Assembly: GCA_023653115.1 (NCBI GenBank)
Contig: JAMNXO010000003.1
Span: 62,001-126,000 of the forward strand
From: Erythrobacter sp.
GTDB lineage: Bacteria; Pseudomonadota; Alphaproteobacteria; Sphingomonadales; Sphingomonadaceae
Direction of reading: 5' to 3'
Length of the DNA stretch: 64,000 nt
The notes beneath the pieces are model-generated. The model searched no databases. It worked only from the letters and a program-made list of their open reading frames with translations, and was not told where the DNA came from. Below are positions 1,886 through 45,851 of this stretch, piece after piece. Within the stretch, counting starts at the first letter, position 1. Each line of letters opens with the position of its first letter. Position numbers and translations under genes: made by a program.

Positions 1886-1953
1886 GGGCGCTGCGCCTAG
1901 CGGATTAGAGCCAGCGCGCCAAGGGGTGAGGTTGTGTTTGAGCGCGTGGATTC

Positions 1954-2046
1954 TTGTTTGCGCGTCCGCCTCCGCGGACGCGTCCTCGGTGCGTTTCCGT
2001 CGCTACGCGCCGGAGCACCTGCGGGCGGCCAGTCGGCCTTGCGGCC
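1954..2046 (-). repeat. dispersed structured repeat, copy 1 (GGAG-hairpin element)
   Basis: Read on the minus strand: CCGCAAGGCCGACTGGCCGC, a variable middle, then CGAGGA and a hairpin GCGTCCGC-GGAG-GCGGACGC followed by CAAACAA. It matches copies at 2108, 27120 and 45107 in order and in invariant boxes, while stem bases differ. It faces copy 2 across about 60 nt. No ORF in 1886-2222 looks real; this gap holds only the two repeat copies and the NDUFA12 upstream region. Confidence 0.75.
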
Positions 2047-2107
2047 CATCCTGCGGCGTGCCGGGTCAGATCGCAAGCGTGATTGTAGCGATGCACCGGG
2101 CGCGCCA

Positions 2108-2198
2108 GCGACCGCAAGGGCGAATGCCCGCCCGCAGCGATGCGGCCTTCAGGCCGCGTGAGCGAGGATTTCGCATCGCGGAGGCGATGCGGAACAAA
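2108..2198 (+). repeat. dispersed structured repeat, copy 2
   Basis: Order of parts: GACCGCAAGGGC, hairpin GGGCGAATGCCC, CGCCCGCAGCGAT, hairpin GCGGCC-TTCA-GGCCGC, GAGCGAGGATTT, hairpin CGCATCGC-GGAG-GCGATGCG, then GAACAAA. It is in opposite orientation to copy 1 and ends just before the DUF192 stop codon. The stems pair perfectly although their sequence differs from the other copies. Confidence 0.8.
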
Positions 2199-2222
2199 AA
2201 CGCCGCGGAGGCGGGTGCGCAA

Positions 2223-27073: not shown

Positions 27074-27119
27074 GGCGGCGGGGGCCAATCTTGATCTGAC
27101 AGAGCCGGGCCGGTCGCAC

Positions 27120-27211
27120 AGCGACCGCAAGGCCGAACGGCCGCCCGCAGCGATGCGACCTTCAGGTCGCATGAGCGAGGATTTCGCGCGCCGGAGGGCG
27201 CGCGGAACAAA
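27120..27211 (+). repeat. dispersed structured repeat, copy 3
   Basis: GCGACCGCAA, hairpin GGCCGAACGGCC, CGCCCGCAGCGAT, hairpin GCGACC-TTCA-GGTCGC, GAGCGAGGATTT, hairpin GCGCGCC-GGAG-GGCGCGC, then GGAACAAA. It lies between mliC and the 3' end of tRNA-Lys. Relative to copy 2, an A:T pair replaces G:C in the middle stem and the last stem differs entirely yet still pairs. Confidence 0.85.
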
Positions 27212-27214
27212 TAT

Positions 27215-27290
27215 TGGTGAGCCCGACAGGATTCGAACCTGTGACCCGCTGATTAAAAGTCAGCTGCTCTACCTACTGAGCTACGGGCCC
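27215..27290 (-). tRNA. trnK: tRNA-Lys (TTT anticodon)
   Basis: The minus strand gives a 76-nt cloverleaf with CCA encoded. Acceptor GGGCCCG/CGGGCTC has one G:U pair. The D arm is AGCTCAGTAGGTAGAGC, the anticodon arm GCTGA-CTTTTAA-TCAGC, and the T arm holds GGTTCGAATCC. Anticodon TTT reads lysine codons. Confidence 0.97.
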
Positions 27291-45059: not shown

Positions 45060-45106
45060 AAGTCACCTCTCTCTGTGGGCGCTGATATCGGATGGTCGCA
45101 GACAAT

Positions 45107-45182
45107 CCGCAAGGCCGACTGGCCGCCCGCAGCGACCGGAGGGAGCGAGGATACCGCACGCCGGAAGGCGTGCGAAAACAAA
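45107..45182 (+). repeat. dispersed structured repeat, copy 4
   Basis: CCGCAAGGCCGACTGGCCGC, CCGCAGCGACCGGAGGGAGCG (shortened middle hairpin), GAGGATACC, then the hairpin GCACGCC-GGAA-GGCGTGC and GAAAACAAA. The first box is identical to that of copy 1. It ends exactly before the GST stop codon and fills most of the gap up to msrB. Confidence 0.8.
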
Positions 45183-45851
45183 TCACCCATCAACCAACGC
45201 ATAGTGCGCAGGCGGCTGGATGGTCTCCATCCGCTCGGTCAGCAGCGGACGGAAGCTCGGGCGGCTCTTGAACACGGCATACCAGCCGCGCGATTGCTCG
45301 TGTCCCGCCCAGTCGATCCCGCCGAGATAATCCGCGACCGAGATCTGCGCCGCAGCAGCGAGATCCGCGAGGCTCATGGTGGAACCCGCCACCCACGGGC
45401 GGTTGTCGATCAACCAGTCGAGATAATCGAGATGCCCGTGCGCCAGCTTCATCGCGTTGCGCAGCGCACCGCTATCGGGCGGCTGGCGCAGGATGCGCTT
45501 TTTCATGCGTTCGGACAGCAAGGGCGCGGTGACATCGGCGTAGAAATTCTCGTCAAACAGCGCCACCAGCCGGCGGATTTCGGCACGCTGCGCGGCAGTG
45601 CCGTTGATCATCGGCGCGCGCTCGACTGTCTCTTCGAAATATTCCGCGATCGCCCGGCTATCGGGCAGGGTGACGCCCTTTTCCTGATTGACGATCACCG
45701 GCGTGCGCCCGGCCGGATTGAGATTGAAGAACATATCGGACGCAGCCCACGGGTCTTCGCGCACCAGCTCGAAGGGGATGTTCTTTTCGCTCAGCAGCAG
45801 CCGGATCTTGCGGCTGAAGGGGCAGAGGGGGAATTGATAAAGGAGCCACAT
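45183..45851 (-). CDS. glutathione S-transferase family protein
   Basis: A 222-aa protein with a thioredoxin-like N-domain (LYQFPLCPFSRKIRLLLSEKNIPFELV, cis-Pro in GRTPVIV, DSRAIAEYFEE) and a helical C-domain (LDYLDWLIDNRPWVAGSTMSLADLAAAAQIS). The CPFS motif has a single Cys where Ser/Tyr is found in other classes, so a thiol-dependent (beta/omega-like) reaction is possible. The substrate is unknown. It precedes msrB on the strand but is separated from it by repeat copy 4. Confidence 0.88.
   Translation of the reverse strand: MWLLYQFPLCPFSRKIRLLLSEKNIPFELVREDPWAASDMFFNLNPAGRTPVIVNQEKGVTLPDSRAIAEYFEETVERAPMINGTAAQRAEIRRLVALFDENFYADVTAPLLSERMKKRILRQPPDSGALRNAMKLAHGHLDYLDWLIDNRPWVAGSTMSLADLAAAAQISVADYLGGIDWAGHEQSRGWYAVFKSRPSFRPLLTERMETIQPPAHYALVDG

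Follow-up and report, generated by a model that had tools for sequence, protein, structure and literature searches.

The element at positions 27107 to 27215 belongs to a large family of structured repeats, which is probably REP/REPIN-like non-autonomous mobile palindromic DNA, served by a putative mobiliser acting in trans. The basis for this reading is the anatomy of the repeats, their copy numbers, their pairing in inverted orientation, their placement at stop codons, an occupancy of sites that differs between species, and the clustering of copies by genome. The repeats look related to the well-known REP repeats, and are more elaborate than these. A fuller picture is offered as a tentative suggestion: mobile repeats with a multi-hairpin recognition core, handled by a non-RAYT enzyme and delivered beside stop codons, some copies of which are now 3'-UTR structures. 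The abundance of the family, its rich anatomy, its presence throughout the sampled genus and its known filled and empty sites make it tractable for a mobiliser hunt, and also for experiments on the role of hairpins that directly follow a stop codon. Annotation would gain too, since genomes in this common marine group contain dozens of structured elements that carry no label.

The window analysed here is a stretch of 64,000 nucleotides from Erythrobacter sp. (assembly GCA_023653115.1, contig JAMNXO010000003.1, positions 62,001-126,000), and it contains exactly four covariance-model matches. The initial annotation had listed four copies (1954 on the minus strand, 2108, 27120 and 45107), and all of these are found in the sequence, together with the stems quoted for the last hairpin and for the TTCA-loop hairpin. 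Its boxes, described as invariant, do occur in the same order and most are constant, but GAGCGAGGA is present in only three of the four copies, the 1954 minus copy carrying CACCGAGGA. The half-unit, of approximately 105 bp, consists of four hairpins in a row, with near-constant boxes linking them. In the orientation of the initial annotation, it starts with H1 (about GGTCGC/GCGACC), the linker GCAAG, and H2, the stem of which is GGCC/GGCC, GGGC/GCCC or GCGC/GCGC. There follow the box GCCCGCAG, which opens an outer stem with GCG-A-GG, an internal loop, H3 (stem GCGACC-TTCA-GGTCGC and variants), the box GAGCGAGGA, H4 (8 bp, with a loop that is usually GGAT, GGAG or GGAC), and a tail of about GGAACACAAA.

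The copy at 27107..27215 (plus strand, model match 126.8 bits) is a whole half-unit. Its start had been placed at 27120, which must be moved upstream: the true first hairpin is formed by GGTCGC (27112-27117) and GCGACC (27121-27126), so that H1, GGTCGC-ACA-GCGACC, occupies 27112..27126, as indicated by sequence and covariation. H2, GGCC-GAAC-GGCC, is at 27131..27142, with two of its four pairs changing on both sides. The outer stem CCCGC/GCG-A-GG, with the boxes GCCCGCAG and GAGCGAGGA, is predicted by folding at 27144..27180; it is invariant across 17 copies from this genome, which says nothing for or against pairing. H3, ATGCGACC-TTCA-GGTCGCAT, lies at 27153..27172 and covaries, except at its second pair, which is a Y/R position without linkage. 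The tip hairpin H4, CGCGCGCC-GGAG-GGCGCGCG, is at 27185..27204, and seven of its eight pairs change on both sides. It is followed by the unpaired tail GAACAAA (27205..27211); all of these features are on the plus strand. The GGAG loop, which had been singled out as a conserved feature, is not so across the family, where the H4 loop is GGAT in 52 cases, GGAG in 29 and GGAC in 10. We also note that a tRNA gene lies at 27218-27290 on the minus strand, with its 3' end 6 bp from the tail of this copy, and that the element would lie in the 3' trailer of this gene.

The 1954 and 2108 copies, on the minus and plus strands respectively, form a single head-to-head pair. The right half of this composite (2093..2202, plus strand, 116.6 bits) is of subtype A, and the left half (1951..2062, minus strand) is of subtype B and scores 34.1 bits with the subtype-A model. 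Judged by eye, the distal part of the unit has further subtypes besides A, among them B (GCAGGCGCC..GGCGCCGAGGA) and C (GGATAGCCAAG..GCCGGCGCTTGAGG). The fourth copy, a model match at 45085..45185 on the plus strand, is single and has H3 largely deleted. It is flanked by two minus-strand genes, its tip lying at that end of the right gene which carries the stop codon, and at the orthologous site the element is present in some congeners and absent in others. At one orthologue of window 45060-45185 (L233, in genome G186), the intergenic region is replaced by a longer, seemingly partly coding sequence.

The family extends well beyond these four copies. An exact core pattern, GCCCGCAGCGAN{2,30}GAGCGAGGA, has 19 exact matches in the genome and none for the reversed control, and 17 of the 19 were aligned, folded and built into a covariance model (R1). 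On this 2.4-Mb assembly R1 gives 49 matches at E<=1, of which 44 also pass E<=1e-5, these E-values being rough because the calibration was short. In one even draw of the GTDB family the element was found in 72 of 151 genomes (E<=0.01); here the best 25 candidates per genome were scored, so per-genome counts saturate. Sampling the order in one even draw gave matches in 89 of 301 genomes (E<=1e-4), 88 of them in the same family, and the lone match outside it is weak. Within the genus of the window, the element is found in 24 of 24 sampled genomes, among the matches listed. The named records that carry it are mainly Erythrobacter, Porphyrobacter and Altererythrobacter, and as far as sampled the repeats are limited to the Erythrobacter-type part of one GTDB family. 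Pattern matches in Flavobacterium, Streptomyces and similar genera were taken as chance, having no R1 match except one marginal case (L184). There is no match in Rfam at or above a gathering score; the best, to the CrfA sRNA (RF01527), reaches 16.5 bits against a gathering score of 38 (E=0.4) and was dismissed as chance level. No description of this repeat family was found in open-licence papers, and the family is apparently uncatalogued.

Among 238 distinct matches there are 56 neighbouring pairs within 350 bp, of which 49 are head-to-head, four tail-to-tail and three tandem. Counted beyond the model ends, the gap in head-to-head pairs is most often 26 bp and mostly 19-36 bp, and such pairs form composites of approximately 250 bp, the other copies being single. 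The spacers are mostly dissimilar, with some shared sequence beside H1, for example GCGCTGAAAC or GGTCGCGGAGCACGG. A recognisable partner remnant was found in just one of 141 singles by a motif test with a sensitivity of 50 in 94 known pairs, and therefore most singles are not obviously broken pairs. We considered whether the pairs are solely two genes each with its own 3' element, and rejected this: codirectional genes have pairs between them as well, and the gap varies little.

Copies are mostly extragenic, with 10 of 238 overlapping a called ORF by more than 20 bp, where genes were called by a codon-usage ORF caller rather than taken from curated annotation. By context, 78 copies are in convergent gaps, 107 in codirectional and 15 in divergent ones. 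Where the tip faces the 3' end of a gene, the model end is no more than 15 bp from the stop codon in 92 of 147 copies; where the base faces the stop codon, the model start is usually further off. This would suggest a strong tip-to-stop orientation rule (92 against 16 within 15 bp), but the rule is weakened by the codirectional singles, of which 43 are tip-to-stop and 32 base-to-stop (p=0.25). Given this ratio, and given that the half-unit probably reaches past the 5' end of the model, our claim is of proximity to stop codons, not of orientation. The organisation is REP-like both in its inverted pairs and in its position downstream of ORFs. The hairpins were also considered as intrinsic terminators and rejected, there being no U-tract after them on either strand. 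At site X1 the element sits between the stop codon and a separate intrinsic terminator beyond it, and would therefore be transcribed. This site (L255:2132-2470; orthologues L344-L361) holds a composite with a central intrinsic terminator, and shows strong turnover of the halves among congeners.

The proposal that structure is kept by compensatory changes is upheld by strong stem covariation, both in the 17 copies and between orthologous copies. In the 17 copies, a 32-pair structure has 94.1% of cells paired, 17 pairs changed on both sides and a covariation score of 0.313, compared with 82.1%, 9.0 pairs and 0.111 for shuffles; none of 500 shuffles reaches the real value on any of five measures. 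Sliding the partners by 1-3 columns reduces the score to 0.010-0.052. The shuffles take no account of relatedness, and the 17 sequences tested are those from which the structure was derived, which is why the comparison of orthologous sites matters too. At site X2, H1 is GGTTGC/GCAACC in G186 and GATCGC/GCGATC in G157, and H2 is GGGC/GCCC or GGCC/GGCC. At sites orthologous to 45107, H1 is GGATTGTC/GACAATCC or GGAATGTC/GACATTCC, and H2 is GGCC/GGCC or GCGC/GCGC. H4 at this site switches between stems of types that are also frequent in other copies of the family, and therefore conversion or exchange of whole stems contributes; across the family, part of the stem variation consists of swaps of entire stems from a limited repertoire (CGCACGCC, CGCATCGC, CGCAGCCC and others). 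The initial annotation had argued from compensation to selection on structure. The compensation is real, but whole-stem exchange and template-switch correction of palindromes can also yield it, and covariation alone is therefore no proof of selection on RNA.

Comparison between species reveals filled and empty sites. In genomes G211 and G210, two convergent stop codons lie 1-8 bp apart and the site is empty, whereas the same site holds composites of approximately 260 bp in G098 and G209, with differing subtype combinations, and a half-unit in G002. No target-site duplication is evident between the filled (G098/G209) and empty (G210/G211) versions, the species compared being only about 80% identical; movement of the element is likewise inferred from species at this distance. 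After the stop codon of gene X2, the element is present in G000, G186, G157 and G206. The nearest neighbour of a copy is in the same genome for 46% of copies, against 12% expected (maximum 22% in 2000 shuffles), and no two copies of one genome reach 95% identity. Site occupancy and clustering by genome indicate spread within lineages, and gene conversion could contribute to the clustering.

The search for a mobiliser covered one enzyme family, Y1. PF01797 (RAYT/IS200 Y1) has no match in this assembly, which is 86% complete. It occurs in 11 of 72 genomes with the element and 14 of 79 without, which is no association, and Y1 is absent from 18 of the 21 genomes having at least 12 element matches. 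In the flanks of 29 Y1 loci, no match to the element exceeds chance level (best E=0.54). Linkage to RAYT/Y1 was rejected on these three counts, of absence, lack of co-occurrence and lack of flanking elements, and the suggestion of a REP-type mobilising enzyme is not supported for the known kind.

We therefore compared the repeats with those already described. CGTC REPs are common in alphaproteobacteria, including sphingomonads (S. wittichii), and have stems of 8-9 bp, loops of 4-5 nt and no known dedicated transposase; REPs are predominantly head-to-head dimers that lie close to the 3' ends of ORFs, a distance that in convergent gaps is below 20 bp (Di Nocera et al. 2013, PMC3733652). The Erythrobacter family resembles the CGTC REPs in its head-to-head dimers, hairpin size and ORF 3'-end placement. 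However, comparison of the alignment consensus with the published description, by eye, finds no CGTC foot tag, stem-base AT or CCA tail, and the unit is a four-hairpin one of about 105 bp with near-constant linker boxes, instead of one stem of 8-9 bp. The mobile unit of REPINs seems to be the inverted doublet, the spacer of which is less conserved (PMC3116915). REPINs and GTAG REPs share the inverted doublets and post-ORF placement, and structure-based recognition is plausible (PMC3116915, PMC3733652). In contrast to them, the Erythrobacter family has no GTAG/GGAG foot tag (GGAG being the H4 loop) and no RAYT, and its doublet is approximately 250 bp, with four hairpins per half. That the family is merely an elaborated member of the RAYT-mobilised GTAG or the CGTC superfamily is improbable. 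The dimers, the 8-bp stems with 4-nt loops, the post-stop placement and, for CGTC, the absence of a dedicated transposase would all fit, but H4 is flanked by GAGGATTT and GGAACACAAA and H1 by about GCTGAAAC and GCAAG in place of foot tags, the first two stem positions are C-G and G-C where the CGTC rule is AT, and four hairpins make up the unit in place of a single one of 20-40 bp. Membership in the tagged superfamilies thus fails for want of a GTAG/CGTC foot tag, a single hairpin and a RAYT. The family is best called one that works like REP/REPIN DNA, set apart from both superfamilies by the missing foot tags and the multi-hairpin unit. Rhizobial RIME-type intergenic mosaic elements are alphaproteobacterial, longer than 100 bp, and have several palindromes. 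They share these general traits with the Erythrobacter family and come from a different order.

A different reading is that the repeats are selected 3'-UTR RNA, in which a post-stop hairpin chain stabilises mRNA 3' ends, affects termination or yields sRNAs, and has spread through usefulness. The 92 tip-facing copies close to a stop codon and the transcribed position at X1 are in keeping with this, as are the orthologous H1 and H2 stems (H2 as GGGC/GCCC against GGCC/GGCC, and GGCC/GGCC against GCGC/GCGC), which stay paired through two-sided changes. Nevertheless we think it unlikely: orientation to transcription is not fixed, as the codirectional singles show, many congeners have no element at the gene in question, and counts of G.T and A.C pairs do not favour the mRNA-sense strand. 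On the strand of the initial annotation, leaving out the Y/R position, there are 29 G.T against 13 A.C in H3 and 38 against 23 in H4, an excess that comes from a few variants, each present in many copies, and may reflect one or two events. Lastly, the palindromes could derive from an extinct element, owing their perfection to template switching or gene conversion and having neither mobility nor function today. Orthologous copies that differ by whole stem types common to other copies, several that have lost H3 or H4, and the sub-95% identity of the closest same-genome pairs would agree with such a mutational origin. It is very improbable, given that different composites occupy one site in sister species, and that template switching does not account for the linker boxes and outer stem, invariant in the 17 copies (the boxes being partly a selection criterion).

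For mobile REP/REPIN-like DNA, the mechanism would be that an enzyme supplied in trans recognises hairpins on exposed single strand and copies or moves the unit. Tolerated insertions would be mostly those directly behind a stop codon, which disrupt neither a promoter nor coding sequence. Stem pairing would be maintained by selection for recognition, by palindrome-correcting template switching, or by both, and hairpins transcribed in mRNA 3' regions may incidentally protect or tune those mRNAs.

The X2 post-stop position is a hotspot for palindromic repeats of several kinds. In relatives other than the four carrying the element, it has a gap of approximately 65 bp or quite different palindromic repeats, some of them CGTC REP-like. 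Among the orthologues of L255:8950-9124, the unrelated palindromic repeats in L346, L350, L351, L352, L360 and L365 are of the forms GTCATTGCGAG..CTCGCAATGACG, CGTCACCCCTGCGCAGGCAGGGG and CGTTC..GTCGAGCGTAGTCGAG. Genome G098 (L382, L386, L390, L321-L325) has a genus-specific subtype, GAGCTnnTGCGAGGAAGCAAG..GCCCGCAGGGTCAAA, the copies of which are closely similar and are possibly a recent burst.
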